Source: Armatimonadota bacterium (lineage in GTDB: Bacteria > Armatimonadota > Fimbriimonadia > Fimbriimonadales > Fimbriimonadaceae). Taken from it: DNA of 64,000 nt. Of this stretch, positions 1 through 64,000 are shown in pieces (the stretch's first letter is position 1; every line of letters begins with the position of its first letter). The DNA lies in assembly GCA_029781035.1 (NCBI GenBank), contig JAKOXK010000095.1, positions 1-64,000 on the forward strand, given 5' to 3'. The notes beneath the pieces are model-generated. The model did not search any database. It was not told the DNA's origin and saw only the letters and a program-made list of their open reading frames with translations. The translations under genes and the position numbers were made by a program.

Positions 1-910
1 TGTGCTGGAAGCCCCGGATCTTGAAGGCGCCCGCGTTGACGAGCTTGGCCTTGACGTCCAGCTCGACGGCGGTCGGGCTCGGCTTCGTGGTCGTGTAGGT
101 CTGGGTCATCCGGACGATCGGCGAGGTCTGGCTCGGGACGATGAACTTGCACACCGTCAGGGCGTTGCCGTCGTCGGCAGCCAGGCTCGACAGGTCGCCG
201 CTGGAGACCTTGCCCAGGTTGATGGTGTTGCCGTTCGGGGCCAAGGTCTCGGTCGTCGAGCCCTCTGTGGCGTCAAACACGATACTTGGGCCGGGATAGG
301 TCGTATGAGAGAACCCTGCGAACGTCGCTGCGACAGTGTCAGGACCGTTGACTGAGTCCGTGGTGACTATGAGCCGAACCGTTCCATGGCTATTGAGGGC
401 GTTGACCAGGTAGTTCTTCGCGTCGGCGCTCAACACTATTGGGTACGTGTCGATCTGTCCCGTCGCCGTGTTGCCCGTCGTGGTGAACTGCCCGGACCCA
501 AGGTAGATCAAGGGGAGTTGTGAACCGACCCCCTCGGGCGTCACGTTCGCCTGCCAAACGAAGGGGGACGTACCCGGGTCAATGGAGTTCGTCGTGTCTG
601 TCGTGAGCCAAAAGTTGAGCACTCCGGGCATCGTGAAGGCAGCGTCGGCCTCAGTGAGAACGACCTGAAAGTTAGAGACGTCCGCGACCGTGAACCCAAC
701 ACCGAAGTCGTCTGCATTGAAGTCAGCCGCTCCCCAACTCGCAAAGGAGCCGTTGGCCGGGCCCTCCATGTTGAAAAACGCCTTTCCGTTCGTCCCACTT
801 CTAGGCCCAGCCGCCTGAATAGTGGCATTGTTGAAGGCCTCTGCCGAGTAGCTGGCCAGGGCAGCGGTGGAAAGGATCGCCAATCCAGTCAAGAATAGAA
901 GTCGTCTCAT
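1..910 (-). CDS. Secreted beta-rich protein with shared C-terminal module, 3' end beyond the left edge
   Basis: An uninterrupted frame runs from ATG at 910 to the edge (303 codons, no stop). It starts with a clear signal peptide (MRRLLFLTGLAILSTAALAS), so the product is exported. The middle is rich in Thr, Asn, Gly and Phe and looks like a beta-sandwich; I do not recognise the family. From about position 223 to the edge it carries the start of a module also found at the C-termini of the kelch protein at 36642 and both subtilases at 60654 and 62555 (G-K-V-S-S-G then LTVCKFIVPSQTSPI). Strong coding signal; function unknown. Confidence 0.75.
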   Translation of the reverse strand, partial: MRRLLFLTGLAILSTAALASYSAEAFNNATIQAAGPRSGTNGKAFFNMEGPANGSFASWGAADFNADDFGVGFTVADVSNFQVVLTEADAAFTMPGVLNFWLTTDTTNSIDPGTSPFVWQANVTPEGVGSQLPLIYLGSGQFTTTGNTATGQIDTYPIVLSADAKNYLVNALNSHGTVRLIVTTDSVNGPDTVAATFAGFSHTTYPGPSIVFDATEGSTTETLAPNGNTINLGKVSSGDLSSLAADDGNALTVCKFIVPSQTSPIVRMTQTYTTTKPSPTAVELDVKAKLVNAGAFKIRGFQH

Positions 911-36641: not shown

Positions 36642-38543
36642 TCAGTTGGCCAGGAAAGCGACCCGGTCGAACCGAGCCTGGTAAATGGACACCGTGACGG
36701 GTCCAGTCTGGTAGTAGTTGACTTTGCACGTGACGTTGCCAGAGCCGTCGATGAACCTGGACACGTTGCCCGTCGCCGAAGCTATGGTGACCGAGTCCGA
36801 TGTTGTCGCGGCCCGGGTGTCGATCGCTTCGTACTGGTTCGTATTGAAGTTGTAGAGTTCGATCGTCCTGGCGAGGCCGACGGTGTTGACGCCGTCTTCC
36901 AACGAGACCGCAAGTCCGTTCGAGTTCGGGGCAGAGGTCTGGCCCGTGAACGTGACCTGGATCGGGGGAGTCTGAGAGTTCGGAACAATGAACTTCTTGA
37001 CGACCAAGTAGGTGTCGTCGCTTGTTTGAGCGTTGGAGATGCCGCCCGAGACGAGTTGGCCCAGAATGATCTGGTAGCTCGCCACCCGCCAAGGGTTCAT
37101 GATCGAAACATTGACCGGATCCGACGCGATGCCATTGGCGACGACCTGCATGTGATAGTTGGCGGCAGGAGCCGTCATGTCGACAGACGCCGTCACAGTC
37201 TGATTGCCGGTCTGGATTTGACGGGTGCTCGGGTGATGTGTCCGCTGGTAGGTGACCGTTCCCGAGTTCGCGTCGGTGAGGCGTGTCAGCGGGTAGTTGC
37301 TGGCCGGGTCGTACTCGTCGCCATAGTTCGCGCCGTTCGAAACGCCGCAGAACTGTGTTCCACCGATGATGCTCGTCGTGCCCTTCTCGACGATCGCAGG
37401 AGACGACGTGATGGTCGGCTTCCAAGCGGGGTTCGGTGACCCGCCGTTCGAGTAGATGTACGCGCTGGTGGAGCCATTGGTCCACAGGGCTTCTCCGGAA
37501 GGCAGGATCTGGAGCCGTCCGAAGTACGGCGCCTTCGAGTTGCTCGGAGCGTCCGCGATGCGGTTGAGGTTGGTACCGTCGAACTCGAAGAAGTAGGTGG
37601 GTGGTTCGAAGGAACCGCCACCTGCCGTGACCGGACCCAGGCACAAGAGAACGTTTCCGTTCGGCATCAGACACGCCGGAGCGTCCTCCGCACCGATCGT
37701 CCTACCGCCGATCGTCGGTGGGGTCGGGCCGACCGTCCACGTGCCCGTCTGGTTCAGGACGGACGGATACTGGTACAGGGCCGTATGGGGCGTCGCTCCG
37801 ATCGCAAACATGCGGCCGTCCGGCATCACGATTCCAGGTCCCGTCTCGAGCGAGTTGGGAAGCACCAAGTCGACTGGCGTGTTGCCGCAACTGATCCACT
37901 GGTTTTGGGTGGGCAGATATCGCTGGGACAAGGGGTGGCCGAAACAGTTCCAGGTTCCGATCGTGCCATCGGGAAGGAGCACCCAACTTTCTTCGTTGCT
38001 CTGGTTGCCGACCATGTTCGCACCTGGCGTGAAGCTCAAAGTGTTGGGATCGAAGAAGGCCGTCCTCTGGTCAAGGATGTTGCCAATCATGATCCGACCG
38101 TCGGCCAGCGTTGTCGAGGACGCGTCGCCAACATAGGTCCAGCCTGCTGGCGGCGTGACGTTCGACCAGGTGTTGGCGTTCGGGTCGTAGAGTTCGCACT
38201 TGGTGGTCTCTTGGCCCCCTGTGCTGTATTCGCCTCCAGCGATCAAGATCTTGCCGTCGGCTGTGACGCCCGTCCCGAAGTAAAGGTGCGTCCACACCGA
38301 ACTGGCGACCTTGGTCCAAGTGCCGTTCAGGTAACTGCCGGTCGTGTCGGGAGTGAGCGTGTACCAGGCGGTCGTGCCGAGTCCACTCGAATCGGCCTGG
38401 TTGCAAAGGATTCGGCCGTCCTGCAGAACCATGTAGGCGTACATGTTCACGGGCGGTTGGTGGTTGAGCGCGGTCCATCCAGCGTTCGCTGCCGGGGCAA
38501 GACACGTCGCAAGAGCGAGAAATGCAAGGTAACGGGTTCTCAT
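36642..38543 (-). CDS. Secreted kelch-repeat protein (galactose-oxidase-like fold) with shared C-terminal module
   Basis: 633 residues from ATG 38543, preceded by AAAGGAC and followed by a signal peptide (MRTRYLAFLALATCLAPAANA). Kelch beta-propeller repeats (for example DGKILIAGGEYSTGG, DGRMFAIGATPHTALYQYP) fill about 20-390. An immunoglobulin-like E-set domain follows (NYPLTRLTDANSGTVTYQRTHH), as in galactose-oxidase-like proteins. The last 145 residues (36642-37079) are a module shared with the left-edge protein and the two subtilases. The Tyr-His copper-ligand pair of galactose oxidase is not evident, so oxidase activity is doubtful. Confidence 0.82.
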   Translation of the reverse strand: MRTRYLAFLALATCLAPAANAGWTALNHQPPVNMYAYMVLQDGRILCNQADSSGLGTTAWYTLTPDTTGSYLNGTWTKVASSVWTHLYFGTGVTADGKILIAGGEYSTGGQETTKCELYDPNANTWSNVTPPAGWTYVGDASSTTLADGRIMIGNILDQRTAFFDPNTLSFTPGANMVGNQSNEESWVLLPDGTIGTWNCFGHPLSQRYLPTQNQWISCGNTPVDLVLPNSLETGPGIVMPDGRMFAIGATPHTALYQYPSVLNQTGTWTVGPTPPTIGGRTIGAEDAPACLMPNGNVLLCLGPVTAGGGSFEPPTYFFEFDGTNLNRIADAPSNSKAPYFGRLQILPSGEALWTNGSTSAYIYSNGGSPNPAWKPTITSSPAIVEKGTTSIIGGTQFCGVSNGANYGDEYDPASNYPLTRLTDANSGTVTYQRTHHPSTRQIQTGNQTVTASVDMTAPAANYHMQVVANGIASDPVNVSIMNPWRVASYQIILGQLVSGGISNAQTSDDTYLVVKKFIVPNSQTPPIQVTFTGQTSAPNSNGLAVSLEDGVNTVGLARTIELYNFNTNQYEAIDTRAATTSDSVTIASATGNVSRFIDGSGNVTCKVNYYQTGPVTVSIYQARFDRVAFLAN

Positions 38544-60653: not shown

Positions 60654-62408
60654 CTATGGGTTGGCGCGCAGAACCCGAACGTTGATCTGGTCGAACTTGG
60701 CGTTCCAAGTCGACTTGTCGATCGGGCCGGCCACATAGACTTGGGTGCGGACTTTGACCGTGCCGCCCGAGATGTAGTCGGAGTAGTTCGTGCTGTTGAC
60801 CGTTTTGACGCCCTCAAAGTACGAACCAGTGACAGGGCCAGTGGCCAGGGTCTCGAACTGCCCCGTCCTCCAGTTGTACAACTGGAGGTTTTGGCCGAAT
60901 CCACCAGGCGTGTCTGTGCTGAGCGTGGCCTCAACCGAGATCTCACCATAGTTGTTGTTGGCGTAAGCCGGAACGTTGTGGATCGTGACCAGTTGTACGG
61001 GCGGCGTCTGAGAGTTGGGAGTGATGCCCGGCTTCACCACGAGGGTGTTGCCTTCGACACGGTACAAGTCCGTGACACTGCCGCTGACCACGCTGCCGAT
61101 CGTGGCCGTGGCAGAGTTGGCCACACGGCCCATCGCGTTCCAGAGGTTGACACGCCCCCAACCGTAGTTGTTGGCGTCGTTCATCGTGATGCACGATCGG
61201 TAAAGGACGTCCTCCACCCTCTGCGCCGAGTACGTCGGATTCTGGCTTAGGATCATCGTCGCGACACCGGCTGCATAAGGAGTTGCCATGCTCGTACCGC
61301 TGTCGTACTCGTAAGTGTTCGTCAAGTTGTCGCTCGACCACCAGGTCGAGTAGATGTTGTTGCCTGGAGCAAAAACGTCCGTAAAGATTCCATAGGCCGA
61401 GAAGTACGATCGAGTGTCGTTCTGATCGATCGATCCAACGATCGTGACGTCGGGCCAGTCGTACTGGGCGCCGTAGTTGCCACCGTCGTTGCCGGCCGCA
61501 TAGCACCAGACAGCGTTGTACTGGTATTTCATCGTGGTGCCGGTCGTACCCATGATCGAGTTCTGTACGCCGGTGTAACTGGTGCTGACAACGCGGCACC
61601 CGTTCGCTGCGGCCCAGAGGGCACCGATTGAGAGAGCTGAAAGCGAAGACCCTCCGCCAGAGTTGTCCGAGACGCGCACCATGAGATGGTGCGTACCCGT
61701 GATGTTCACGCCACACACGCCCAGTCCGTTGTCGCCGGTCGCCGCTGCGATTCCTGTCGTGTGAGTCCCGTGACCGTTCAAATCCTTGACGACCGATGAT
61801 CCGTAGACATCTTCCGTCTTGACGTCATTGAGTCCCGTCGCGGTCGCTGAGTTCGCACCATGGACGCGTCCCGTGATCAAGTCTTCGTGGGCGACGTGGA
61901 CGCCCGTGTCCGTGAGCCCGACCGTGAACGCCGAGTTCCCACGGCAGATGTCCCAGGCGGCCGTGGAATTGTTATCGGTGTGGCTCCACTGGAGGCTCAA
62001 GTACGGGTCGTTGGGCACGAAGGCAGGATAGACCCTGTAGTCCGGCTCGACGTACTCGTAGAGTCCAGTCCGCATGAGCTCCCGCGACAGCGAGTTCTCG
62101 GTCATCCCGTTTGGGACGCGGATGATATAGCAGTCGATTGGCGCGATGTAACCGATTTCGAGGTCAGCGAGCTTAGCTTCAGCGTCCATCCGCCGAAAGT
62201 CGGCGGCGACGTCGTCGATCCCCATTCGTTTCCACGCCGCACGTTGCAGGGGTCGGGCGATCATTCTGCCGGTGAACTCCTCGACCCCAGGCCGCTCTGT
62301 GAAGCTCAACCGAACACGGGGCACGAAGTCCATTCGGGTCCCTTTGACACTCTGTGACCATGCGGAAACAGTAATGGCCGACAGCGCAAGAAGTGCAAGA
62401 ATCCTCAT
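60654..62408 (-). CDS. Secreted subtilisin-like serine protease (S8) with shared C-terminal module, copy 1
   Basis: 584 residues from ATG 62408, where the signal peptide begins (MRILALLALSAITVSAWSQ); the longer frame to 62546 lacks one. A propeptide-like region runs to about 135. The S8 domain has Asp in VGLTDTGVHVAHED, His in DLNGHGTHTTGIAA and Ser in DSGTSMATPYAAGVATM. The last 153 residues (60654-61115) are the module shared with three other secreted proteins here (NTLVVKPGITPNSQTPPVQ, LQLYNWRTGQFETL, KFDQINVRVLRANP). It is nearly parallel to the next gene, so a tandem duplication. Confidence 0.92.
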   Translation of the reverse strand: MRILALLALSAITVSAWSQSVKGTRMDFVPRVRLSFTERPGVEEFTGRMIARPLQRAAWKRMGIDDVAADFRRMDAEAKLADLEIGYIAPIDCYIIRVPNGMTENSLSRELMRTGLYEYVEPDYRVYPAFVPNDPYLSLQWSHTDNNSTAAWDICRGNSAFTVGLTDTGVHVAHEDLITGRVHGANSATATGLNDVKTEDVYGSSVVKDLNGHGTHTTGIAAATGDNGLGVCGVNITGTHHLMVRVSDNSGGGSSLSALSIGALWAAANGCRVVSTSYTGVQNSIMGTTGTTMKYQYNAVWCYAAGNDGGNYGAQYDWPDVTIVGSIDQNDTRSYFSAYGIFTDVFAPGNNIYSTWWSSDNLTNTYEYDSGTSMATPYAAGVATMILSQNPTYSAQRVEDVLYRSCITMNDANNYGWGRVNLWNAMGRVANSATATIGSVVSGSVTDLYRVEGNTLVVKPGITPNSQTPPVQLVTIHNVPAYANNNYGEISVEATLSTDTPGGFGQNLQLYNWRTGQFETLATGPVTGSYFEGVKTVNSTNYSDYISGGTVKVRTQVYVAGPIDKSTWNAKFDQINVRVLRANP

Positions 62409-62516
62409 CTCTTCATCTCTCAAGTACTCGCTGGCACAACTTTGCCAGCTTCTAACGATTCTATCACGAGTTCCCCCGCATCGCCGGAAAGAGACCGCTA
62501 AGCTCAAGCTTTGGAC

Positions 62517-62544
62517 GGCCCGCACCGAGTTGGCGATGCGGGCC
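62517..62544 (-). terminator. Inverted repeat downstream of the second subtilase
   Basis: GGCCCGCA at 62517-62524 pairs with TGCGGGCC at 62537-62544 around a 12-nt loop, just past the stop of the minus-strand gene at 62555. An 8-bp GC-rich stem, plausible as a terminator. Confidence 0.5.
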
Positions 62545-62554
62545 AAAGCTGTCC

Positions 62555-64000
62555 CTATTCGGTCGCCCTGAGGGCTCTTATGTTGATCTGGTCGAACGAT
62601 GCCTGCCAGTTTGAGGTCGCGACCGGACCCTGTGGGTACACGAGTGTCCGTACCCGGCAGATACCGTTGCTCATGTAGTTGGCCAAGTTCGAGGTCTGGG
62701 TCGCTTCGAAGAAGCTCGACGTCTGCCCAATCGGCCCCGACGCAACGTCGTCGTACTGGTTGGTCGAGAAGTTGTAGAGCTGTACCTTCCTGGCGAACGT
62801 TCCAGCAGTGCTGACACGGGCCTGCACCTCGACCGAGATCTCGCCAAACCCGTTATAGGTCGTTGGCAGCGCATGCTCCGTGACCACTTGGATCGGGGCC
62901 TCACCGGCGTTTGCCACAGGGCCCTTGGCCACGACGAGGTTGTTGCCTTCAGCGCGGTGCAAGTCGGTCACGCCACCGCTGACGAGTACTCCGCGGAACA
63001 CGCTCAGCGTGTCGGCTTTCCGGCCCATGGCGTTCCACAGGTTTACGCGCCCCCAACCATAGGTACCCGGTGACCCCATGCTGATACAAGACTTGTACAG
63101 GATGTCTTCGACCCTTTGCGCCGAGTAGTTTGGGTTCTCCGCAAGGATCATCGTCGCGACACCAGCCGCATACGGGGTCGCCATGCTCGTCCCGTCAAGG
63201 TAAGTGTAACTGTCCGTGATCCCGTTGTTCGTCCACCACGTCGAATTGATCCCGGCTCCAGGAGCCATGACGTCGATGAACTGACCACGGGCAGAGAAGC
63301 TGGCGATCGTGTTGTTGGCCTGGGTCGCTCCGACGATCGTGACATCGGGCCAGTCGTAAGCCGACCCATACGTTCCGCCATCGTTGCCAGCCGCATAGCA
63401 CCATACGGCGTTGTACTGCGTCTTCATCGCGGTGCCCGTTGTCGCGATCACGCTCGCCTGGACTCCGCTGAAGCTGGTGCTGACCACCCGACATCCGTTG
63501 GCAGCCGCCCACAAGGCGCCGATTGTGATCGCCGTGTAGTTCGAGGAGTAGCCATCTTCCGAGATCCTGACCATTAGGTGCCGAGTACCGTCAATGTTCA
63601 CGCCACAGATCCCCTTCCCGTTGTTGCCAATGGCGGCGGCGATTCCCGTGCAGTGGGTGCCGTGCCCGCCCGTGGGCATTACGATCGAGGTCCCGTAGAC
63701 GGCTTCTGTCCGGACGGTGTCCAGGGTCGTCGCATAGGAAGAGTTGGCCCCGCTCGCACGATTAGCTGCCAGATCCTCGTGGCTCACGTGAACGCCGGTG
63801 TCTGTAATGCCCACGATCAAGGCCGCGTTGCCCCGACAGATGTCCCAAGCGTCGGTCGCGTTGTTGTTCGTCTGGCTCCATTGAGTGCCCAGTTGGGGGT
63901 CGTTCGGGGCAAAGGCGGTAAAGACTCGATAGTCCGGCTCGACATATTCGTAAAGACCGGTCCTCATCAGTTCGCGAGACAGCGAGTTCTCGTTCATGCC
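62555..64000 (-). CDS. Secreted subtilisin-like serine protease (S8) with shared C-terminal module, copy 2 (5' end beyond the right edge)
   Basis: At least 482 codons, open to the right edge, so the signal peptide and most of the propeptide are missing; the in-frame ATG at 63997 is internal by comparison with copy 1. Triad: Asp in VGITDTGVHVSHED, His in GGHGTHCTGIAAAIG and Ser in LDGTSMATPYAAGVATM. The final 153 residues (62555-63016) are the shared module (NNLVVAKGPVANAGEAPIQV, VQLYNFSTNQYDDV, FDQINIRALRATE). Colinear with copy 1 throughout. Confidence 0.92.
   Translation of the reverse strand, partial: GMNENSLSRELMRTGLYEYVEPDYRVFTAFAPNDPQLGTQWSQTNNNATDAWDICRGNAALIVGITDTGVHVSHEDLAANRASGANSSYATTLDTVRTEAVYGTSIVMPTGGHGTHCTGIAAAIGNNGKGICGVNIDGTRHLMVRISEDGYSSNYTAITIGALWAAANGCRVVSTSFSGVQASVIATTGTAMKTQYNAVWCYAAGNDGGTYGSAYDWPDVTIVGATQANNTIASFSARGQFIDVMAPGAGINSTWWTNNGITDSYTYLDGTSMATPYAAGVATMILAENPNYSAQRVEDILYKSCISMGSPGTYGWGRVNLWNAMGRKADTLSVFRGVLVSGGVTDLHRAEGNNLVVAKGPVANAGEAPIQVVTEHALPTTYNGFGEISVEVQARVSTAGTFARKVQLYNFSTNQYDDVASGPIGQTSSFFEATQTSNLANYMSNGICRVRTLVYPQGPVATSNWQASFDQINIRALRATE

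Follow-up and report, generated by a model that had tools for sequence, protein, structure and literature searches.

What is the domain of about 150 residues that closes four secreted proteins in a 64,000-nucleotide stretch of an Armatimonadota genome (the window), and what might it do for the proteins that carry it? The sequence-only reading of the window placed this module on two subtilases, a kelch protein, and a protein at the left edge, and the translations confirm all four tails at these places, with every listed sequence motif present. The modules and the cargo parts to which they are joined are as follows:

60654..61118, minus strand: C-terminal module of subtilase 1, ~154 residues plus stop
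61119..62408, minus strand: subtilase 1 cargo, signal peptide MRILALLALSAITVSAWS plus Peptidase_S8; start codon at 62408 from sequence
62555..63016, minus strand: C-terminal module of subtilase 2
63017..64000, minus strand: subtilase 2 cargo, Peptidase_S8; signal peptide past the window end, at ~contig position 64300
36642..37082, minus strand: C-terminal module of the kelch/galactose-oxidase-like protein
37083..38543, minus strand: kelch cargo, signal peptide MRTRYLAFLALATCLAPAANA
2..238, minus strand: fourth module, first half only, Cys subtype, cut at the end of contig C92
239..919, minus strand: left-edge protein cargo, with signal peptide; no family match

Without the adjoining stop codon, the three complete modules span 60657-61118, 62558-63016, and 36645-37082, all on the minus strand. 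The left-edge module lacks its second half; contig C92 itself starts there.

The similarity between the four tails, first aligned by eye, lies well past chance, with E values from 4e-16 to 2e-61. The subtilase 1 tail, used as a query against the whole genome, gave 26 matches, including the subtilase 2 tail (E 2e-61) and the kelch tail (E 4e-16), and a profile search recovered the left-edge fragment (E 6e-26). The module is far commoner than these four copies: a profile built from the 26 matches found 49 in its own genome, a number that a wider profile equaled. Contig ends account for four of the 49, which are 3' fragments only 65-69 residues long; this leaves ~45 genes with the module, a copy number made slightly uncertain by assembly breaks at near-identical tails, which also cut several genes. 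Such breaks lie in or beside near-identical copies at the ends of contigs C92, C18, C9, C36, C90, C89, C68, and C29. Tail proteins are often adjacent in twos or threes (G000:C58:18558-22143, G000:C85:25204-27021, L099, and L103).

The window tails match no Pfam or NCBIfam model, and for them the earlier remark that no family name is known for the module holds. Elsewhere in the family this remark needs softening, since PF14741 (GH114_assoc) scores weakly and repeatedly. No other weak match is nearly as common: for 23 of 108 tails it is the Pfam model that ranks first (best E 8.4e-5), and its bit scores, seen for part of the tails, range from 14.5 to 19.6 against a Pfam gathering cut-off of 22. 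Run on the whole genome, PF14741 yields four sub-threshold matches, all inside tail copies. This domain is named for its N-terminal place beside GH114 enzymes, whereas the tail is C-terminal and borne by other cargo; GH114 was not seen among the 25 cargo families listed of 29. Among the same 108 tails, 13 weakly match the baseplate family PHROG 7378, CBM65_1 gives a single sub-threshold hit (E 0.013), no Dockerin_1 is found at E 0.1, and no named carbohydrate-binding module (CBM) family in Pfam rises above its cut-off for the tails. Searches of Pfam, NCBIfam, PDB sequences, and PHROGs thus give no confident named-domain match, and the tail probably represents a remote branch of a jelly-roll group that includes GH114_assoc and PHROG 7378.

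AlphaFold models of the kelch tail (pLDDT 95, pTM 0.89) and the subtilase 1 tail (pLDDT 87.9, pTM 0.84) are all-beta with strands at equivalent places, the two sequences being 30% identical, and both models hit identical solved structures in nearly one order. The superposition proposed for all four tails therefore stands for the two that the check reached. The top structural match is the phi812 phage baseplate protein (9eui chain D; Z 12.9 and 13.1). The carbohydrate-binding domain of a mannanase (1wky) scores Z ~11 and CBM22/CBM4 modules Z ~10, and the range over CBM4, CBM22, CBM29, and CBM32 modules is Z 9-11, with an rmsd of ~3 Å over 110-130 residues. Middling Z values are common among beta-sandwich folds, and values like those of the CBMs are also obtained for Cry toxins, MAM domains, and IFT25; the best values obtained with the predicted models nevertheless exceed the usual sandwich background and span the whole domain. 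Confident prediction therefore supports a jelly-roll of the CBM type, a sharper form of the beta-sandwich guessed in the sequence-only reading. The resemblance to jelly-roll CBMs of families 4, 22, 29, and 32 is one of fold, at only ~10% sequence identity, and a jelly-roll fold alone is no proof of glycan binding. The phi812 baseplate domain gives the best structural match and PHROG 7378 a weak sequence match, yet these are phage structural proteins; phage fibre-type proteins likewise head the matches in a viral structure library. A viral or phage origin was considered and set aside, as these matches are structural or weak and IMG/VR, phage, and plasmid records hold no evidence for one, with no match that encodes the tail.

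Where the module sits in its proteins is nearly invariant. A set of 145 distinct tails whose stop codon is present, drawn from the own genome and its relatives, shows one copy per protein without exception and the module as last domain in 142, so the expected C-terminal position on secreted proteins is borne out. The alignment stops at most nine residues from the stop codon in 141 of the 145, and L139 is also terminal, its last hairpin being merely unaligned; in the single-contig genome G013, all 23 sampled tails end 0-9 residues before the stop. The only N-terminal copy (C85:35946-36389, in L127:1885-3468) lies between a signal peptide and a PQQ-type propeller, and in two relatives (L081 and L082) a dockerin-like repeat follows the tail, which is thus not last. 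One protein of 192 residues (C58:61784-62224, L135:4456-5031) consists of a signal peptide and the module alone. By hydropathy, almost every own-genome member has a Sec-type signal peptide, which suggests that module-bearing proteins are exported.

Near-strict C-terminal placement, a single copy per protein, and ~45 diverse cargos per genome are what a recognition domain for dedicated secretion or sorting machinery would show, in the manner of type IX C-terminal domains. Such machinery would read the folded tail, take its protein through the outer membrane, and perhaps cleave or attach that protein. We consider this explanation possible but doubtful. The copy directly behind a signal peptide and ahead of a PQQ propeller speaks against it, as do the two tails followed by a dockerin-like repeat. 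Type IX C-terminal domains likewise occur as one C-terminal domain on many unrelated cargos, but they have no sequence match to the tail (the T9SS tail models TIGR04183 and TIGR04131 do not hit it), and the type A tails of type IX secretion have an Ig-like fold where the tail is a predicted jelly-roll. PF14349 (SprA) has no match in 61 genomes, although the positive control also gave no signal, and no partner gene for a sorting system was found.

The cargo is varied. The 45 scanned proteins include 6 subtilases and 2 sedolisin-type proteases, together with BNR and sortilin-like propellers; kelch, PQQ, FG-GAP, and laminin-G proteins; a cupredoxin-like protein; a HAF-repeat protein; and a choice-of-anchor B protein (TIGR04312 match, 3.8e-93). 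The earlier description of the cargo parts as unrelated fits most of them and fails for a few paralog groups, among them the window's two subtilases, which are 69% identical to each other. Peptidases and propellers are the top families among the 45, and recognizable polysaccharide-degrading enzymes form at most a small minority. That composition tells against a substrate-targeting CBM that directs enzymes to polysaccharides in the environment, for instance in plant or microbial debris, even though the predicted fold resembles CBM4/22/32. CBMs are found at either protein end and in tandem, unlike the single, C-terminal tail, and we regard such targeting as quite unlikely. With so many beta-propellers among the cargos, and with glycines and core hydrophobics among the most conserved tail positions, along with a last-strand Asp, the module could also be a passive structural cap or stabilizer for beta-rich exoproteins that binds nothing. 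We hold this to be very unlikely, as the tail occurs on subtilases and sedolisins too, once stands alone behind a signal peptide (the 192-residue protein), and on homologous cargo is replaced by dockerin-like repeats, as described below.

The tails fall into subtypes. Cysteines at positions 29 and 135 (kelch-tail numbering) are both present in 47 tails, both absent in 61, and never found singly; in the own genome, 21 of 40 aligned tails have the pair and 19 have neither. This covariation suggests a disulfide joining the third strand to the start of the last strand in about half of the copies. All 20 choice-of-anchor B tails checked lack the pair, so a single subtype can persist within a cargo family. 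There is perhaps a third subtype: in divergent tails of sedolisin, subtilase, and kelch proteins (C43:25088-25549, C43:27539-27988, C60:6491-6874, and C24:5065-5364), the last hairpin is longer.

The tail DNA itself appears to move. Five genes (C18:3810, C9:10, C36, and the left edges of C92 and C18) have tail DNA that is 92-99% identical, and their cargos do not match one another by BLASTP at E 1e-5. The block in common begins ~20-30 bases ahead of the domain (46 in one pair). Its 3' end, readable only in copies with an assembled 3' end, lies at or just past the stop codon in C18:3810, C9, and the contig-end fragments; in C92, the C18 left edge, and C36, the contig stops inside the tail, at the repeat. 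One pair also has ~50 bases of terminator in common. In G013 too, BLAST blocks of 65-82% identity on unrelated cargo begin where the module does, so the spread is not limited to the own genome. An assembly artefact is an unlikely source of the near-identical tails: in the three truncated genes, a single open frame runs through the cargo/tail junction, which is 230-370 bases in from the contig end, and the C18:3810 copy lies wholly inside a contig. The block boundaries point to recombination, by gene conversion or 3'-end capture. The module was thus rightly taken for a mobile add-on, at the protein level from its diverse, mostly unrelated cargo and at the DNA level from near-identical tails on unrelated genes.

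The module occurs in 44 of 61 genomes searched (the own genome and 60 relatives) in 1 to ~60 copies, the highest counts being lower bounds; this patchiness, from none to ~60, would also suit a sorting tag. Across the phylum it is present in 93 of 291 Armatimonadota genomes, with just 1-3 copies beyond the order. Relatives with the module include Fimbriimonadaceae, Chthonomonadaceae, and other Armatimonadota MAGs. The family is a mobile jelly-roll module that has expanded in this lineage and sits at the C-terminus of exported proteins. The own genome also holds ~30 PEP-CTERM proteins and an exosortase (C30:3584-4375), so the tail is a second C-terminal module in parallel. PEP-CTERM is similarly a C-terminal tag on many exported proteins, but it is ~25 residues long, whereas the tail is a folded 150-residue domain that has neither a PEP motif nor a membrane helix nor a basic end. 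The absence of a membrane helix and PEP-CTERM motif had been noticed from the window alone; the final jelly-roll strand closes the proteins. The exosortase was rejected as a partner of the tail, as it is found in 56 of the 61 genomes regardless of tail count.

Evidence on function comes from the choice-of-anchor B family, which takes its name from its varied C-terminal anchors. Homologs in the relatives bear the tail after the cargo, save the one of G026, a genome that has no tails, and one G017 copy, which end instead in dockerin-like repeats below the Pfam cut-off. Because these homologs end in either this tail or dockerin-like repeats, an anchor role is suggested, although the replacement of the tail by another C-terminal module on one cargo family would be equally in keeping with a sorting tag. 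At the genome level, 18 of the 61 genomes are tail-rich and 19 dockerin-rich, and none has at least 13 of both, a threshold picked after the counts were known; the exclusion has p 2.7e-4 over genomes, 0.011 by genus, and 0.26 within the window's own family. The split is partly phylogenetic and follows families to some extent. Together, the swap on choice-of-anchor B and the genome counts support, but do not prove, that tail and dockerin-like repeats fill one role. Tens of dockerin_1 hits per genome occur in G017, G026, G029, G037, and family f2. Cohesin is not found over cut-off in any of the 61 genomes, dockerin-rich ones included, so the dockerin-like tails of the relatives have no visible classical partner. 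None of the papers searched links Armatimonadota with PEP-CTERM or Fimbriimonadales with dockerin. The module tails could mark the cargo of a new Armatimonadota sorting or anchoring system that works beside PEP-CTERM/exosortase with its own receptor and is swapped elsewhere for a dockerin-type tag without detectable cohesin, an idea that we rate as unlikely.

Of the three functions first proposed for the module (surface attachment, secretion, and ligand binding), we favor attachment to the surface or matrix; sequence cannot decide among them. Our leading reading, held at somewhat less than even confidence, is that of a mobile, lectin-like C-terminal tether on exported proteins that likely binds glycan. 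A CBM-like jelly-roll, joined to the C-terminal end of many proteins that leave by the Sec route, would fold outside the cytoplasm after export, about half of the copies with a disulfide, and would tether its cargo to some component of the surface or matrix, for which a polysaccharide of the cell's own making is the likeliest candidate. Tethering of this kind would keep proteases, propeller proteins, and other exoproteins near the cell, and spread of the tail DNA within the genome by recombination would give new cargo an identical tether. Both the tethering role and the glycan ligand are inferred, and it counts against them that a plain CBM is not expected almost solely at the C-terminus.

The module is carried by roughly 1% of genes in some Armatimonadota, including most choice-of-anchor B proteins there, and its description would allow many hypothetical exoproteins to be annotated together. 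Among bacteria, it is a clear example of a C-terminal module that spreads through recombination of DNA at its own edge, and it poses a testable question: which receptor or glycan is bound by the tail, and by its dockerin-like replacements, in bacteria without cohesin.
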